Origin: Streptomyces sp. SID12488
GTDB taxonomy: Bacteria > Actinomycetota > Actinomycetes > Streptomycetales > Streptomycetaceae
Assembly (NCBI RefSeq): GCF_010548275.1
Contig: NZ_JAAGLT010000022.1
Span: forward strand, 62,001-126,000
DNA: 64,000 nucleotides
Reading direction: 5' to 3'
Shown here: piece after piece, positions 3,665-10,428 of the stretch
How positions within the stretch are numbered: the first letter of the stretch is position 1
How the letters are laid out: every line of letters starts with the position of its first letter
Position numbers and translations under genes: made by a program
The notes under the pieces: model-generated
Databases searched by the model: none
What the model was told of the DNA's origin: nothing
The model's input: the letters and a program-made list of their open reading frames with translations, nothing else

Positions 3665-4681
3665 ATGTCTCGCACCACTCGCCTCTCCCCCTCCCTCCTC
3701 AGAGCCGCCGCGGTCACGGGCGTCGCGGCCCTCACCCTGACTGCCTGCGGGTCCGGCTCCGGATCGGGCTCGTCGAGCTCCGGCTCGGGCGAGGTCAAGG
3801 TCGGTCTGATCACCAAGACCGACACCAACCCGTTCTTCGTGAAGATGAAGGAGGGCGCGGAGAAGGCCGCCAAGGAGAACGGTGTCCAACTGTCCACCGC
3901 GGCGGGCAAGTTCGACGGGGACAATGCCGGACAGGTCACCGCCGTCGAGAACATGGTCGCCGCCGGGGTCAAGGGCATCCTGATCACCCCGAGCGACTCC
4001 AAGGCGATCGTGCCCGCGATCGAGAAGGCCCGCGCCAAGGGCGTACTGGTCATCGCCCTGGACACCCCGACCGACCCGGAGAGCGCGGTCGACGCCCTCT
4101 TCGCCACCGACAACCTCAAGGCCGGCGAGCTGATCGGCGAGTACGCCAAGGCCGCGATGGCGGGCAAGACGGCGAAGATAGCCGCGCTCGACCTCGCCCC
4201 GGGTGTCTCCGTCGGCGTTCAGCGGCACGACGGTTTCCTGAAGGGCTTCGGCGCCACCGAGAAGGACGTCGTGTGCGCCCAGGACACCGGCGGCGACCAG
4301 GCCAAGGGCCAGACGGCGATGGAGAACTGTCTCCAGAAGGAATCCGACATCAACGTCGTCTACACCATCAACGAGCCGGCCGCGCTGGGCGCGTACACCG
4401 CGCTGAAGGCCAAGGGCCGGGAGAAGGACGTACTGATCGTCTCCGTCGACGGCGGCTGCACCGGCACCCAGGCCGTCAAGGACGGCAAGATCGCCGCGAC
4501 TTCGCAGCAGTACCCGCTGAAGATGGCGGCCGAGGGCGTCAAGGCCGTTGTGGCGTACGCCAAGGACGGCAAGAAGGCGTCCGGTTACACCGACACCGGC
4601 GTCACGCTGATCAGCGACAAGGCGCAGGACGGGGTCACGTCGAAGGACACCGCCTACGGCCTGGAGAACTGCTGGGGCTGA
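3665..4681 (+). CDS. Sugar ABC transporter substrate-binding lipoprotein (CUT2, FrcB/RbsB-like)
   Basis: Periplasmic-binding-protein-fold lipoprotein of 338 residues that captures a monosaccharide outside the membrane. The signal peptide ends at lipobox LTAC (Cys28), followed by a Ser/Gly linker. The mature part begins [19 protein letters not shown] and contains [17 protein letters not shown] and LVIALDTPT, typical of the ribose/fructose branch (PF13407). The chosen ATG has AGGAG eight bases upstream; a longer in-frame start lacks one. It is first in an operon with permease, ATPase and, further on, LacI. FrcB-like fructose binding is the best guess, but the sugar is not proven. Confidence 0.92.
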
Positions 4682-4713
4682 GCGGGGCACTCCGCTGGGG
4701 GGCGCGGTGCTTT

Positions 4714-4792
4714 GCTGCGGGCCGGGTGGGGGCTGGTCGCGCCCGCGCGGCGGAGCCGCATATCGGCACAGCCCCGCGCCCCTTGAAGGCGC
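4714..4792 (-). repeat. Dispersed Streptomyces-type intergenic element, copy 1
   Basis: Read on the minus strand the segment contains GCGCGGGGCTGTG, then GCGGCTCCGCCGCG, then GGGCGCGACCAGCC. The same ordered blocks recur at 49013-49080 on the other strand. GCGGCTCCGCCGC can form a hairpin. It lies between the binding-protein and permease genes, where it might attenuate or stabilise the operon transcript. Confidence 0.7.
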
Positions 4793-4881
4793 CCCTGCGG
4801 GGCGGCCCTCACCAGAACCACCCCGTTCACCCCGTTCCCTCGCCCGCCGACAAGGACAACTGTCTTCCGACAAGGATTCGC

Positions 4882-5877
4882 ATGACAGCCACGACCACGC
4901 CGTACGCCGAGCTCAAAGCACCGACCACGGCCCGCAGACTGCTCACGGCGCCGACCACGGGACCCCTGGCCGCCCTCCTCCTGGCCTGCGCCTTCTTCTC
5001 CTTCTCGACCGACCAGTTCCTGACCGGCGGGAACTTCTCGCTGATCGTGCAGCAGGTCATGGTCGTGGGCACCCTCGCCATCGGGCAGACCCTGATCATC
5101 CTGACCGCCGGCATCGACCTGTCGTGCGGCGCCGTGATGGCGTTCGGCAGCATCGTGATCGCCAAGATGGCCGCCGAGGGCTCCCTGCCCCCGCTCGTCG
5201 CCATCGCCCTGGGCATCGGCGTCTGCGGCGGCTTCGGGCTGATCAACGGGCTGCTGGTGCAGAAGATCCCGCTGCCGCCGTTCATCGTCACCCTCGGCAT
5301 GCTCAACGTGGCGTTCGCGCTGACCCACATCTACTCCGAGGAACAGACGGTCACCAACCTGCCCGGCCCGCTGACCGCCCTCGGCGAGACCTTCCCCCTC
5401 GGTCACACCGACATCACCTACGGCTCCCTCGTCACCATCGCGCTGTTCCTCCTCCTCGCCTATTCGCTGAGCAACACCGGCTGGGGCCGCCACGTCTACG
5501 CCCTGGGCAACAGCGCCGAGTCCGCCAGGCTGAACGGCATCCGCACCTCCCGCCTGACCATCGGCATCTACACCGTGGCGGGTCTCCTCTACGGCATCGC
5601 CGCCCTGCTGCTCATCTCGCGCACCGGAGTCGGCGATCCGCAGGCCGGGCAGACCGACAACCTCGACAGCATCACCGCCGTGGTCCTCGGCGGCACCAGC
5701 CTCTTCGGCGGACGCGGTTCGGTCCTGGGCACCTTCATCGGCGTCCTCATCGTCGGTGTGTTCCGCAACGGCCTGCAGCTGATGGGCGTCGCCTCCATCT
5801 ACCAGACCCTGATCACCGGCGTCCTGGTGATCCTCGCGGTGACCGTCGACCAGCTCTCCCGGAAGAAGGCCCGATGA
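4882..5877 (+). CDS. Sugar ABC transporter permease (CUT2, FrcC/RbsC-like)
   Basis: A 331-residue inner-membrane permease with eight to ten hydrophobic helices (for example PLAALLLACAFFSF, VVGTLAIGQTLIILTAGID, LGIGVCGGFGLINGLLV, ITAVVLGGTSLFGGRGSVLG). GIDLSCGAVMAFGSIV and GGTSLFGGRGS are BPD_transp_2 family hallmarks. The start at ATG 4882 has AAGGA five bases upstream; the frame is open much further upstream but that part reads as non-coding. About 200 bp with a dispersed element separates it from the binding protein. It overlaps the ATPase gene by ATGA. Confidence 0.92.
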   Translation: MTATTTPYAELKAPTTARRLLTAPTTGPLAALLLACAFFSFSTDQFLTGGNFSLIVQQVMVVGTLAIGQTLIILTAGIDLSCGAVMAFGSIVIAKMAAEGSLPPLVAIALGIGVCGGFGLINGLLVQKIPLPPFIVTLGMLNVAFALTHIYSEEQTVTNLPGPLTALGETFPLGHTDITYGSLVTIALFLLLAYSLSNTGWGRHVYALGNSAESARLNGIRTSRLTIGIYTVAGLLYGIAALLLISRTGVGDPQAGQTDNLDSITAVVLGGTSLFGGRGSVLGTFIGVLIVGVFRNGLQLMGVASIYQTLITGVLVILAVTVDQLSRKKAR

Positions 5878-6710
5878 CCGCCACCTCCTCCCCCACGCCC
5901 GTGCTGCAGGCCCGCGGTCTGGTCAAGCGGTACGGCCAGGTCACCGCCATCGACGGCGCCGACTTCGACCTGCTCCCCGGCGAGGTCCTCGCCGTCATCG
6001 GCGACAACGGCGCCGGCAAGACCAGCCTGATCAAGGCCCTCACGGGTGCCGTGACCCCCGACGCCGGCGAGATCCTTCTCAACGGGCAGCCCATCACCTT
6101 CTCCGGTCCGCAGAGCGCCCGCGCCCACGGCATCGAGACGGTGTATCAGGACCTGGCCGTGGCCGCTTCCATGGACATCGCCTCGAACATGTTCCTGGGG
6201 CGCGAACTCCGCCGCTCCGGCGTCCTCGGCAGTGTCTTCCGCATGCTCGACAAGAAGCGCATGCGTCAGGAGGCCGCCGAACACATGGCCGACCTGAAGA
6301 TCGGCCTGCGCTCGCTCACGCAGTCGGTGGAGACGCTCTCCGGCGGACAGCGGCAGGCCGTCGCGGTCGCCCGTTCCGTCGCGTGGGCCCGCAGCGTCGT
6401 CGTCATGGACGAACCCACCGCCGCCCTCGGCGTCAAGGAGTCCGGCCAGGTCCTCGATCTCATCCGCCGGGTCCGGGACAAGGGCATGCCGGTGGTCCTG
6501 ATCAGCCACAACATGCCGCACGTCTTCGAGATCGCCGACCGGATCCACGTTCACCGCCTCGGCCGCCGCGCCGCGGTGATCAAGCCCTCCGACTACTCCA
6601 TGGCCGAGGTCGTCGCCATCATGACCGGCGCTCTCACCGTCGATGCGGCCGGAGATACTGTCGTAGCGGATTCCGAGGCGGCGAAGGCAGCCGGAGTCCA
6701 GGCCAACTGA
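5874..6710 (+). CDS. Sugar ABC transporter ATP-binding protein (FrcA-like)
   Basis: A 278-residue ATPase that powers the preceding permease. Walker A is GDNGAGKTS (about residues 43-51), followed by Q-loop region VYQDLAVA, signature LSGGQRQAVAVARSVAW, Walker B VVVMDEPTAAL and switch His in LISHNM. It has one nucleotide-binding domain, unlike the double-domain RbsA/XylG proteins, and so matches the FrcA type, which dimerises. The ATGA overlap with the permease implies coupled translation. The C-terminal tail has no added regulatory domain. Confidence 0.93.
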   Translation: MTATSSPTPVLQARGLVKRYGQVTAIDGADFDLLPGEVLAVIGDNGAGKTSLIKALTGAVTPDAGEILLNGQPITFSGPQSARAHGIETVYQDLAVAASMDIASNMFLGRELRRSGVLGSVFRMLDKKRMRQEAAEHMADLKIGLRSLTQSVETLSGGQRQAVAVARSVAWARSVVVMDEPTAALGVKESGQVLDLIRRVRDKGMPVVLISHNMPHVFEIADRIHVHRLGRRAAVIKPSDYSMAEVVAIMTGALTVDAAGDTVVADSEAAKAAGVQAN

Positions 6711-6723
6711 CAGCACGACTCAG

Positions 6724-6764
6724 CTCTCGCAGTTCCCGGCCGAGGCCGCGGCCGGAACCGAGAG
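6724..6764 (+). terminator. Intergenic hairpin between transporter and lacI
   Basis: CTCTCG...GTTCCCGGCC pairs with GGCCGGAAC.CGAGAG around a short loop, with one bulge. There is no T-tract, so it may lower read-through from the transporter into the regulator or protect the mRNA end rather than fully terminate. Confidence 0.5.
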
Positions 6765-6786
6765 CCCTCAGGAGACGGTTTCCTCC

Positions 6787-7809
6787 ATGGCAGCGAACCG
6801 CCGCCCCACCCTTGCCGATGTCGCCCGAGAAGTCGGTGTCAGCGCCAAGACGGTCTCCCGCGTCCTCAACGCGGACGGCCCCGCCTCCGCTCAGACCAGG
6901 GAACAGGTACTCGCCGCGGTGGCCAAGCTCGGCTTCCAGCCGAACCTCATGGCCCGCAACATCCGCGTCGGCGGACCCGACACCACGGTCGGACTGGTCA
7001 TCCCGGACCTCGGGAACCCCTTCTTCGGGGCCGTGGCGCAAAGCATCGAGGACACGGTCCGCGACCGGGGCCTGACCCTGCTCATGGGCTCCTCCGCGGA
7101 CGATCCCGTCCGCGAGCGCGCGCTGACGGACAAGTTCCTCGCCCGGCGGGTCAGCATCCTGATCGTCGTACCGTCCGTCGGCGCCGACCACGCCCACCTC
7201 AGGTCCCACCGTACGGCGGGACTGCCGGTGATCTTCCTCGACCGACCCGGAGTCGGCCTCGCCACGGACAGCATCGTCAGCTCCAACCGTGCCGGAGCCC
7301 ACGACGGCGTCGCCCACCTCATCGCTCACGGGCACCGGCGCATCGGCTTCGTCGGCGACCTGCCGCTGACGCTGTACACGCGCCGCGAGCGGCTGGCCGG
7401 CTACCGCTCGGCGTTGCACGAAGCCGACATCCCCTACGACCGCTCGCTGGACACCAATGCCCACGACCAGCAAGGAGCCGAGGCCGCGACCGCCCGACTC
7501 CTCGGCCTGGCCGATCCCCCCACCGCCCTGTTCGCCGGCAACAACATCATGGCGCTGGGCATAGTCGCCGAACTCGCCCGCAGCAAACGCAAGGACATCG
7601 CCGTCGTCGCCTTCGACGACGTCTCCCTCGCCGAAGCGCTCGAACCCGCCCTGACCGCCGTCGCCCAGGACGCGGAAGAACTCGGCAGGGCCGCGGCGAC
7701 CACCGCCCTGACCCGACTCGACGGCGACCGCACCCGGGCCCGCACCATCACCGTGCCCACTCGGCTGATCGTCCGCGGCTCGGGCGAGCAACCCGCGCCC
7801 AGTCCGTAG
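6787..7809 (+). CDS. LacI-family transcriptional regulator
   Basis: A 340-residue repressor-type protein: N-terminal HTH (PTLADVAREVGVSAKTVSRV, about residues 6-25), hinge LNADGPASAQTREQV, then a sugar-binding core (TTVGLVIPDLGNPFFGAVAQ, GLPVIFLDRPG, HRRIGFVGDLP, PTALFAGNNIMALG). AGGAG precedes the ATG. It follows the transporter on the same strand and most likely controls it through the paired palindromes at 3574-3603, released by the imported sugar or its phosphate (inference). Confidence 0.93.
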   Translation: MAANRRPTLADVAREVGVSAKTVSRVLNADGPASAQTREQVLAAVAKLGFQPNLMARNIRVGGPDTTVGLVIPDLGNPFFGAVAQSIEDTVRDRGLTLLMGSSADDPVRERALTDKFLARRVSILIVVPSVGADHAHLRSHRTAGLPVIFLDRPGVGLATDSIVSSNRAGAHDGVAHLIAHGHRRIGFVGDLPLTLYTRRERLAGYRSALHEADIPYDRSLDTNAHDQQGAEAATARLLGLADPPTALFAGNNIMALGIVAELARSKRKDIAVVAFDDVSLAEALEPALTAVAQDAEELGRAAATTALTRLDGDRTRARTITVPTRLIVRGSGEQPAPSP

Positions 7810-8497: not shown

Positions 8498-8557
8498 CGG
8501 TAGTCGAGTCAGCAGTAGTTGAGTCAACGGTATTTGAGTCAGCGGTAGTTGAGCTCC
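8498..8557. repeat. 15-bp tandem repeat spanning a stop codon
   Basis: Four 15-bp units close to CGGTAGTTGAGTCAG. On the minus strand each of the first three encodes Leu-(Asn/Lys)-Tyr-X-stop, so the C-terminal codons and stop of the monooxygenase gene have been duplicated in tandem behind the real stop. Confidence 0.8.
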
Positions 8558-9741
8558 GCCAGCTCGGTCGCGAGCTTCCTCGGCATGGCCGTGTGGCCCA
8601 GCAGGGGAAGCGCGATGTTACGCGCGCGGCGCATCACGGGGTTACGGGTGGTGGCCATTCGGGTCATCCGGTCGGTGAAGGCGACGACCCGCTGGGCGAC
8701 GGGGCGGCGCTGAGCCTCGTAGCCGTCGAGTTGCCCGGTGGCGAAGGCCCGGCCGAGGGCGTAGCCGTCCTGGATGCCGGTGTTCATGCCCTGGCCACCG
8801 GCGGGGCTGTGGACGTGCGCGGCGTCGCCCGCCAGAAGCAGGCGGCCGGCCCGGTAGTGGTCGGCGACCCGGTGGTGCACCCGGAACCGTGACGACCAGG
8901 CGAGACCGGTGACCTTGGCCTGGCCGGGGGCACGCTCGTCGAGCAGCCGCTGGACGAAGTCGAGGTCGGGGGTGGGCGGGGCGTCGTCCACGGTGGCGAC
9001 GACCCGGTAGTGGCCGCCGGGGAGCGGCGCGACGACGGCGAGACCCTGGGTGCCGAAGGTGAGCGACACCTCGGCGGGGCCCGGCGCCCAGTCCATCACG
9101 ACGTCCGCGAGGACGAAGGACTCCTCGTAGGCGCTGCCGGTGAACCCGATGCCGGCGGCTTCGCGGACGGTGCTGTGCATACCGTCGGCACCGACCGCGT
9201 ATGCGGCGCGCAGGGTTTCGCCGGTGCTCATGGTGAGCGTCACGCCGTCGGCGTCCTGGACCACGGAGGCGACCTCGTACGGGCGGTGCACGGCGCCGCC
9301 GAGCGCCCGCAGCCGGTCCAGCAGCACGCTCTCGGTCTCGTACTGGGGAACCATCAGGGTGTACGGGTGGGCCGTGGGCAACCGGTCGAACGGCACCGTC
9401 AGCAGGCGCCGGGAGCCGTCGCGGACGCCGAAGCGGGTGATCCGGATGCCGCGCGCGATCAGCTCCTCGGAGGCTCCCAGCTCGTCGAGGACCTCCAGAG
9501 TACGGGCGTGCACGACGGCGGCGCGCGAGGTGTTGGCGCCCTCAGCCAGCTTGTCCAGGACGACGAAGTCGACGCCGGCGGCGGCGAGCGTGACAGCGAG
9601 CGCGAGTCCGGCCGGCCCGGCACCCACGACGGCGACCTCGGTCCGGGCAGGCAGCGTGGTGCCGTTCATGCCGTTCCTGCCATGCAAGTCGTTCCTGTCG
9701 TTCATGCCGTTCCTGTCGTTCTGGTTGTCCGTGTTGTTCAT
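8539..9741 (-). CDS. FAD-dependent monooxygenase (PheA/TfdB-like)
   Basis: A 400-residue flavoprotein hydroxylase. The Rossmann motif EVAVVGAGPAGLALAVTLA lies near residue 33, the middle part has DGMHSTVREAAGI, and the second FAD motif is LLAGDAAHVHSPAGGQGMN, all typical of aromatic-ring hydroxylases using FAD and NAD(P)H. The TTG/ATG choice is settled by AAGGAGA six bases before ATG 9741. The first 25 residues are a repetitive NDRNGM-type stretch; an inner ATG at 9669 would remove it. It is divergent from a TetR gene across an operator array and so is probably repressed by it. The substrate may be a drug or aromatic compound, which is not deducible here. Confidence 0.9.
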   Translation of the reverse strand: MNNTDNQNDRNGMNDRNDLHGRNGMNGTTLPARTEVAVVGAGPAGLALAVTLAAAGVDFVVLDKLAEGANTSRAAVVHARTLEVLDELGASEELIARGIRITRFGVRDGSRRLLTVPFDRLPTAHPYTLMVPQYETESVLLDRLRALGGAVHRPYEVASVVQDADGVTLTMSTGETLRAAYAVGADGMHSTVREAAGIGFTGSAYEESFVLADVVMDWAPGPAEVSLTFGTQGLAVVAPLPGGHYRVVATVDDAPPTPDLDFVQRLLDERAPGQAKVTGLAWSSRFRVHHRVADHYRAGRLLLAGDAAHVHSPAGGQGMNTGIQDGYALGRAFATGQLDGYEAQRRPVAQRVVAFTDRMTRMATTRNPVMRRARNIALPLLGHTAMPRKLATELAELNYR

Positions 9742-9753
9742 GGCGGTCTCCTT

Positions 9754-9852
9754 GCCAACATGTGTTTGCCAACGAATGTTGGCCAACGCCTGTTGGCATG
9801 ATGCTCTCACTCGCACTGGAAAGTCAACACCCGTTGGCCTACAGTCGTTGGC
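9754..9852. promoter_or_regulatory. Five-site TetR operator array in the divergent promoter
   Basis: 16-bp palindromes of the form GCCAAC-N4-GTTGGC occur at 9754-9769, 9768-9783, 9782-9797, 9823-9838 and 9837-9852. The second and third are perfect; the others have one mismatch. Neighbours overlap by two bases and repeat every 14 bp. The first lies just upstream of the monooxygenase ribosome binding site and the last touches the TetR start codon, so binding should shut both promoters. Confidence 0.85.
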
Positions 9853-10428
9853 ATGAACCAGCACACCGAGCCCACCAGCACGGACAAACGCTCCGACCGC
9901 ACCAAGGCCGCGATCCTGCGTGCCGCACGCGAACGGTTCGCGGCCCAGGGCTACGAGCGCACAACCATCCGGGGTGTGGCCGCCGACGCCGACATCGACC
10001 CGTCCATGGTCATGCGTTACTTCGGCAACAAGGCCCAGCTCTTCGACGCGGCGCTCGCCATCGACCTGCGCCTGCCGGACCTCACCGGCGTCTCGGCGGA
10101 CGAGCTGGCGCGGGTGCTGGTGCGGCACTTCCTCGACCGCTGGGAAGGCGACCCGGCCGATGAGGCACTGCTCGTCCTGCTCCGCTCGGCGGTCACCAAC
10201 GAGCACGCCGCGGCGCGGATGCACGAGATCTTCGCGACCCAGGTCGCCCCGACGCTGGCCGCCGCCCTGGGCCCGGAAACCGCCAGGCGCAAGGCCGGCC
10301 TGGTCTCCGCCCAGCTACTCGGCCTGGGGCTGACCCGCTACCTGCTGCGCCTCCCGGCGGTGACCGCCCTCACCCGGGACGAGATCGAGGACGGCCTCGC
10401 GCCGGCCATCGAGGCGGTTCTTCATTGA
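9853..10428 (+). CDS. TetR-family transcriptional regulator
   Basis: A 191-residue regulator with the usual N-terminal HTH (TKAAILRAARERFAAQGYER, then IRGVAADADIDPSMVMRYFG, ending NKAQLFDAAL) and an all-helical C-terminal ligand domain (TetR_C_17-like, LVSAQLLGLGLTRYLLRLP). No Shine-Dalgarno precedes the ATG; operator half-site GTTGGC abuts it directly, so the mRNA is probably leaderless. The divergent FAD monooxygenase is the obvious target, with its substrate or product as inducer (inference). Confidence 0.92.
   Translation: MNQHTEPTSTDKRSDRTKAAILRAARERFAAQGYERTTIRGVAADADIDPSMVMRYFGNKAQLFDAALAIDLRLPDLTGVSADELARVLVRHFLDRWEGDPADEALLVLLRSAVTNEHAAARMHEIFATQVAPTLAAALGPETARRKAGLVSAQLLGLGLTRYLLRLPAVTALTRDEIEDGLAPAIEAVLH

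Follow-up and report, generated by a model that had tools for sequence, protein, structure and literature searches.

The Locus and Its Palindromic Sites

The window, a stretch of 64,000 nucleotides from Streptomyces sp. SID12488, carries a gene for a TetR-family regulator and, divergent from it, a gene for a FAD-dependent monooxygenase. Regulators of the TetR family rank among the most common repressors in bacteria. The region between the two start codons contains five predicted operators and candidate promoter elements:

8539..9741, minus strand: FAD-dependent monooxygenase gene (FAD_binding_3), divergent, 400 aa, start codon inferred
9748..9753, minus strand: ribosome-binding site AAGGAG of the monooxygenase gene, read directly
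9754..9769, no strand: predicted operator 1 (GCCAACATGTGTTTGC), in the monooxygenase-proximal cluster, adjoining the ribosome-binding site
9768..9783, no strand: predicted operator 2 (GCCAACGAATGTTGGC), a perfect palindrome
9782..9797, no strand: predicted operator 3 (GCCAACGCCTGTTGGC), perfect, over the monooxygenase start point expected from the -10 hexamer
9798..9803, minus strand: monooxygenase -10 hexamer CATCAT, 18-bp spacer, adjoining operator 3
9822..9827, minus strand: monooxygenase -35 hexamer TTGACT from a promoter scan, overlapping the complement of the left half of site 4
9823..9838, no strand: predicted operator 4 (GTCAACACCCGTTGGC), with its GTC within the monooxygenase -35
9837..9852, no strand: predicted operator 5 (GCCTACAGTCGTTGGC), containing the tetR -10-like box
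9840..9845, plus strand: putative tetR -10-like box TACAGT, 7 nt before the ATG, in the left half and centre of site 5
9853..10428, plus strand: TetR-family regulator gene, 191 aa (TetR_N + TetR_C_16), starting directly after site 5

The regulator matches the N-terminal helix-turn-helix model PF00440 (49 bits against a cutoff of 24) and the C-terminal domain PF17920 (101.7 bits against 26.2). Its AlphaFold2 model (mean pLDDT 88) has an all-helical fold like that of solved TetR-family members, the best fold match being 2np3 (SCO0857), with a Z score of 15.3 over 171 residues, an rmsd of 3.7 and a Foldseek E value of 5.5e-06. The monooxygenase belongs to PF01494; its best NCBIfam models include the rifampin monooxygenase family, and all of those shown score below their cutoffs. 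Within the 5' end of its gene, at 9660-9721, lies a 9/18-bp tandem repeat (CGTTCATGCCGTTCCTGT) that encodes an Asn/Asp/Arg-rich, low-complexity N-terminus, and a similar stretch is visible in the relative locus L005. Elsewhere in the window (4273-7809), open reading frame translations judged by eye indicate sugar ABC transporter-like genes, followed by a gene for a LacI-type regulator that resembles ribose repressor models.

The sites begin at 9754, 9768, 9782, 9823 and 9837, exactly as the original prediction had placed them. Those at 9768 and 9782 are perfect palindromes, and the other three have one mismatch each: in the right half at 9754 (GTTTGC), and in the left half at 9823 (GTCAAC) and 9837 (GCCTAC). 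The prediction had also described five overlapping sites with a 14-bp period, whose neighbours share a terminal GC. The period and the shared GC both hold inside each cluster, but the sites form two clusters (3 + 2) and not one run. The dyads on either side of the gap are 41 bp apart, with the promoter core between them. Among 20,000 dinucleotide-preserving shuffles of the 111-bp intergenic stretch 9742-9852, 40 contained one site (at most one mismatch), none contained two, and none contained a 14-bp pair. The five palindromes are thus genuine, and chance falls far short of explaining them.

Counted genome-wide with one mismatch allowed, single sites number 24, these five included, against 21 for the reversed control, which is background. 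The signal is therefore the array, not the motif. Tandem pairs with up to three mismatches occur 71 times on the forward and 50 times on the reverse strand, below the 92 and 109 of the control, and a regulon elsewhere in the genome was accordingly rejected. Among the matches listed, sorted by mismatch, the three exact tandem pairs are all at this locus, and the same scan showed no second array. One tandem half-site pattern with a single mismatch lies off the locus, at G000:C161:65709-65728, and might be a second target or a chance match.

Conservation and Copy Number in Relatives

The comparison set comprised the best 80 of 156 loci with relatives of the regulator, which are 52 to 98% identical in their best segment. 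These loci are related by descent, so counts drawn from them are not independent. Mean identity to the regulator of the window is 78% in the DNA-binding domain, 90% in the recognition helix and 56% in the ligand domain. At least two sites lie upstream of the regulator gene in 79 of these best 80 loci, in genera including Streptomyces, Mycobacterium and Nocardia, with the consensus GYCAAC-RNNY-GTTGRC. The sole locus without sites by this count, L026, is re-arranged.

A homologous monooxygenase is divergent and adjacent in 76 of the best 80 loci. The homologue is only 36-41% identical in L034, L035, L065, L068, L071 and L084, and is a partial match in L016. It lies downstream in L008 and upstream, in the same direction, in L026, while the DNA fetched around L030 and L047 contains no monooxygenase homologue. 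One member of the set, L027, comes from a metagenome-assembled genome labelled Methylococcaceae, which is not an actinobacterium; it too has this regulator and monooxygenase, with operators in 2+2 form, and it sits on a long branch of the tree. This outlier reflects either mis-binning or horizontal transfer.

The association can also be approached from the motif. A 30-bp pair pattern with one mismatch allowed was scanned against 396 genomes of the phylum, some of which may overlap with the 80 loci. Matches occurred in 12 genomes, the window's own included, and the reversed control gave none. All 13 loci found (fetched as 17 stretches) adjoin homologues of both the regulator and the monooxygenase. 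In relatives and in scan loci alike, the palindromes are kept beside the regulator gene, which supports the original assignment of these palindromes as TetR sites.

Site number is far less constant than site presence. When runs are extended with up to three mismatches, and architecture is written as monooxygenase-side plus tetR-side sites, the 80 loci and the window (81 in all) are divided as follows: 1+2 in 39, 2+2 in 19, 3+2 in 12 (the window among them), 2+3 and 1+1 in two each, and 2+1 and 3+3 in one each. L035 has three clusters, three loci have tetR-side sites only, and L026 scores none in this count. On a quick tree of the regulators, monooxygenase-side site number changes at least eight times; the 3+2 form is found in the window's Streptomyces group and, separately, in one Embleya locus. 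Five is not a special number of sites, as relatives score from 2 to 6 and one scanned genome has nine by a loose score. In that genome (G219, locus L100), nine GTTGGC-type sites with up to two mismatches lie between the regulator and the monooxygenase homologue, one of them fitting the strict consensus. The steps in L100 are 14, 27, 53 and 43 bp, and it stands at the extreme of the copy-number series.

Promoters Written into the Sites

In a promoter scan of 9700-9900, the monooxygenase promoter was the sole sigma-70-type promoter-like site (shuffle mean 0.0). The tetR -10-like box was not among the finds of this consensus scan, and no good candidate for a tetR -35 was seen. The promoter elements account for two of the imperfect half-sites. 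The left half of site 4 is GTCAAC because the monooxygenase -35 overlaps its complement, and that of site 5 is GCCTAC because the putative tetR -10 (TACAnT) occupies the half and the centre.

The same arrangement recurs among relatives. The first tetR-side site starts GTCAAC, giving TTGAC on the other strand, in 77/77 two-cluster loci, whereas 44 of the 126 monooxygenase-side sites have T at the second position. In the same 77/77 loci, a -10 carrying A2 and T6 is found 17-18 bp from the -35; this count takes the best of four spacings with a score favouring A2 and T6, so that chance alone is estimated to give about one in five. At the other end, the last tetR-side site runs straight into an ATG or GTG in 76 of 80 loci. 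The exceptions, judged from the last scored site, are L039, L058, L059 and L063; L039 and L063 do have an ATG, placed after a second site that has diverged further. The tetR message is apparently leaderless; a start codon right behind the last site fits the expectation for such a message.

The tetR-side consensus of these related loci reads GTCAAC-RNNY-GTTGGC-CTAC-RNTY-GTTGRC-ATG. Its column counts draw on 80 of 81 rows, L026 (nine mismatches) having been dropped, and in L035, L056, L058, L059, L065 and L068 the best match falls on some cluster away from the tetR promoter. For these reasons, the T of GTCAAC is taken from the count of two-cluster loci instead.

Re-arranged loci separate the two promoters. 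In L008, where the monooxygenase is downstream, its promoter keeps a single site upstream and a tandem pair downstream. In L035, the promoters lie apart and each has sites of its own; the tetR-side pair there starts with GCCAAC. A further separated case is found in genome G251 (L104/L108), again with the monooxygenase promoter having its own sites. Among tetR-side pairs freed from the monooxygenase promoter, GTCAAC has reverted to GCCAAC in two (L008 and L035), a change that L030, L047 and G251 do not show. Lastly, in L026 a tandem pair lies at the -35 of the upstream monooxygenase gene, with one site downstream. Since this upstream pair persists without a divergent tetR promoter, the tandem pair seems to be useful in itself.

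Spacing and Geometry

When each half-site is allowed at most one mismatch, neighbouring sites on the monooxygenase side are 14 bp apart in 44/44 pairs, the window included, and those on the tetR side in 74/76. The two exceptions are a 28-bp step over a weaker site (L071) and a 111-bp step between clusters (L035). Between clusters, the dyad-to-dyad gap takes every value from 41 to 49 bp across 75 loci, and a gap of 57 bp in L021 becomes 43 once a weaker site is counted. Other steps between runs, seen in the genome scan, are 27 and 53 bp (L100), 52 bp (L103) and 54 bp (L104).

The gap thus drifts while the clusters stay fixed, which indicates that indels occur in the gap, whereas none was observed inside a cluster. 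Since no promoter element lies between the monooxygenase-side sites, their fixed 14-bp step points to a fit requirement on neighbouring dimers. At 10.5 bp per turn, 14 bp corresponds to a computed rotation of 120 degrees, in agreement with the angle originally proposed. A crude straight-helix calculation places the facing DNA-binding domains of neighbours 31-38 Å apart, against 34 Å within one dimer, and closer still at 12-13 bp; it is a plausibility argument, not a model. Filament-like or graded repression had also been suggested; one continuous filament over all five sites is unlikely, as each cluster serves a promoter of its own and the distance between the clusters drifts through most of a helical turn.

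A Proposed Mechanism and Its Alternatives

The sites and their register, the promoter overlap, the conservation, the gene linkage and the fixed 14-bp spacing are read from the sequence. They make it quite likely that the locus encodes an autoregulated TetR-family repressor of the regulator and monooxygenase genes, with dimers stacked on 16-bp sites, probably cooperatively. Binding, repression, start points, the leaderless message, cooperativity and the ligand are inferred. The 9853 protein would repress its own gene and that of the divergent FAD monooxygenase, each 16-bp palindrome (GYCAAC-RNNY-GTTGRC) binding one dimer. Sites 4 and 5 would cover the tetR promoter, site 5 holding the -10 and ending at the ATG, and site 4 would also cover the monooxygenase -35. 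Sites 1-3 would cover the monooxygenase start point and leader. Neighbouring dimers, 14 bp and about 120 degrees apart, would bring the DNA-binding domains that face each other together in a single stretch of major groove; binding is probably cooperative, so that extra copies may raise affinity and steepen the response. A ligand, perhaps an aromatic substrate of the enzyme, would release the stack.

Some observations sit less easily with this reading. L030 and L047 keep the tetR-side pair, with no monooxygenase found beside it. A single monooxygenase-side site in 39/81 loci means that stacking is not required there, and the 14-bp spacing could partly be inherited from tandem duplication. The available text on CprB describes dimers that bind cooperatively without touching, so cooperativity need not mean contact (PMC4150764).

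It is possible, though not probable, that the same repressor occupies the same sites as independent dimers, with extra copies only raising local occupancy and the 14-bp step arising from the two-base overlap and tandem duplication. The lone monooxygenase-side site is indeed the commonest state, and with GC shared between neighbours, losing bases at the junction would impair both of them. However, an insertion between the shared bases would spare the core halves, yet spacings of 15 or 16 bp occur in 0/44 pairs, and the gap between clusters has varied in the same loci in which the 14-bp step has stayed. At the other extreme, the array might be an open-ended helical stack, in which dimers follow one another at 14 bp, three of them filling 42 bp (four helical turns), and assembly starts from the conserved tetR-promoter pair. 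Repression strength and steepness would then be tuned by gain or loss of 14-bp units (2 to 6 sites, up to nine by the loose score), with the promoter hexamers lying in half-sites. This extended reading is tentative and on balance doubtful.

Three further readings fare much worse. A short repression loop bridging the two clusters, in place of stacking within them, is very unlikely: the clusters do flank the monooxygenase promoter core in 77/81 rows, but a gap that ranges from 41 to 49 bp takes the clusters through most of a helical turn and leaves no fixed face, and about 45 bp is very short for a loop. That the monooxygenase-side palindromes act as hairpins in the mRNA leader, affecting stability or translation, is highly improbable. 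The array adjoins the ribosome-binding site and the leader strand folds unusually well (z = -3.4, with 0/200 shuffles as good), but palindromes fold well by construction. Moreover, all six pairs are kept in 67/126 sites on the mRNA strand against 87/126 on the opposite strand, and the conserved tetR-side pair lies upstream of the monooxygenase leader. Finally, the true dyad might be the GTTGG-CCAAC junction, leaving the window with three sites and orphan halves and not five, as suggested by GTTGGCCAAC and two one-mismatch forms at 9778, 9764 and 9833. Such a junction dyad, centred on GGCC, is scarcely credible and was rejected. In 39 loci, the lone monooxygenase-side site is scored as an N4-centred palindrome without a neighbour, the N4-centred register pairs all ten half-sites of the window, and the central RNNY is kept in 126/126 monooxygenase-side sites. 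The N4 register of the original prediction is thereby upheld, and stacked dimers on N4-centred sites remain the preferred reading.

Comparison with Known Systems

The nearest functional precedents are EthR-ethA, SCO7222-SCO7223 and, from another protein family, CodY. In EthR-ethA, the genes of the repressor and a flavin enzyme are divergent, and about 55 bp accommodates four dimers, which is about 14 bp per dimer. EthA, a Baeyer-Villiger enzyme, belongs to a different flavoprotein class, and the EthR operator has degenerate repeats. EthR of Mycobacterium tuberculosis reportedly 'octamerizes cooperatively on its operator', in the words of the title of Engohang-Ndong 2004. The likeness lies in a TetR-family repressor, here a predicted one, of a monooxygenase, the regulator of the window being likewise divergent from a flavin monooxygenase (PF01494). 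For a possible cooperative multi-dimer assembly of the EthR kind, the fixed 14-bp register counts as indirect support. Unlike those of EthR, the palindromes of the window are near-perfect, in exact 14-bp register and variable in number, with both promoters built in. No molecule named EthR is among the 23 PDB sequences that match the regulator (E <= 0.001), a comparison in which EthR itself was not aligned. EthR2 (6hs0) ranks 37th among fold matches, with a Z score (12.8) that many other TetR-family proteins equal or exceed.

As far as the available text describes it, SCO7222 of Streptomyces coelicolor is a TetR-family repressor with a divergent monooxygenase, SCO7223, and three operators, two nearer its own gene and one nearer the enzyme; it was footprinted, gave three shifts and showed repression in a lux reporter (PMC3511530). 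It resembles the repressor proposed here in being a TetR-family repressor of a divergent monooxygenase with several operators, but its operator as given there, TGGAACGNCGTTCCA, is unlike the sites of the window. Operators of this kind, one-mismatch copies included, were seen in the window's own genome (G000:C22:163690, L091) and in two other Streptomyces genomes (L089, L090). In these three stretches they are 24-33 bp apart and do not overlap. The idea that SCO7222 is the same system was rejected, as the operator differs and neither the TetR protein nor the monooxygenase gives a tblastn match (E <= 1e-3) in the 3-kb stretches L089-L091.

Other TetR-family proteins bind as pairs. QacR, CgmR, Ms6564 and CprB are described, in the accessible portions of the reports, as placing two dimers on 22-32 bp, those of CprB on opposite sides of the DNA (PMC4150764, PMC6449355). 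From the same portions, QacR, CprB and FadR-Sa share with the present model dimers that bind cooperatively side by side on one stretch of DNA. In contrast to QacR and CprB as described there, the dyads of the window are 14 bp (120 degrees) apart in an open-ended series. A solitary 16-bp site in 39 loci, and clusters that lengthen by 14 bp at a time, tend to argue against two dimers interleaved on one 22-32 bp element as in QacR and CprB. Rv3160c was considered as a relative and rejected, since the available description gives an operon that has one inner and one outer palindrome, a different layout (PMC7810876).

CodY offers a parallel in operator design. According to the available text, its 15-nt sites overlap at a fixed spacing, an insertion of 1-2 bp reduces binding to single-site affinity, and a three-site operator assembles three dimers (PMC10415144). 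Overlapping sites at a fixed spacing are the likeness; the protein family is unrelated, and on the same description the overlap is 6 nt and the rotation 60 degrees. For the operator or the regulator-monooxygenase pair itself, no description appeared among the literature matches listed, a search of titles and abstract openings that took in few subscription journals and is weak evidence.

Significance

To the original prediction, the analysis adds the two-cluster layout with its embedded promoters, conservation across genera, variable copy number and the strict 14-bp step. The multi-dimer TetR cases met in the comparison are mostly dimer pairs or degenerate operators. Here, relatives offer a natural graded series in strict register, with one to three overlapping sites on one side and usually two, up to four, on the other. 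The sites provide a clean, modular operator part (GYCAACRNNYGTTGRC), and the matches listed for the window's own genome include no second array. With the re-arranged loci serving as controls, the relationship of operator copy number and spacing to cooperativity becomes directly testable.
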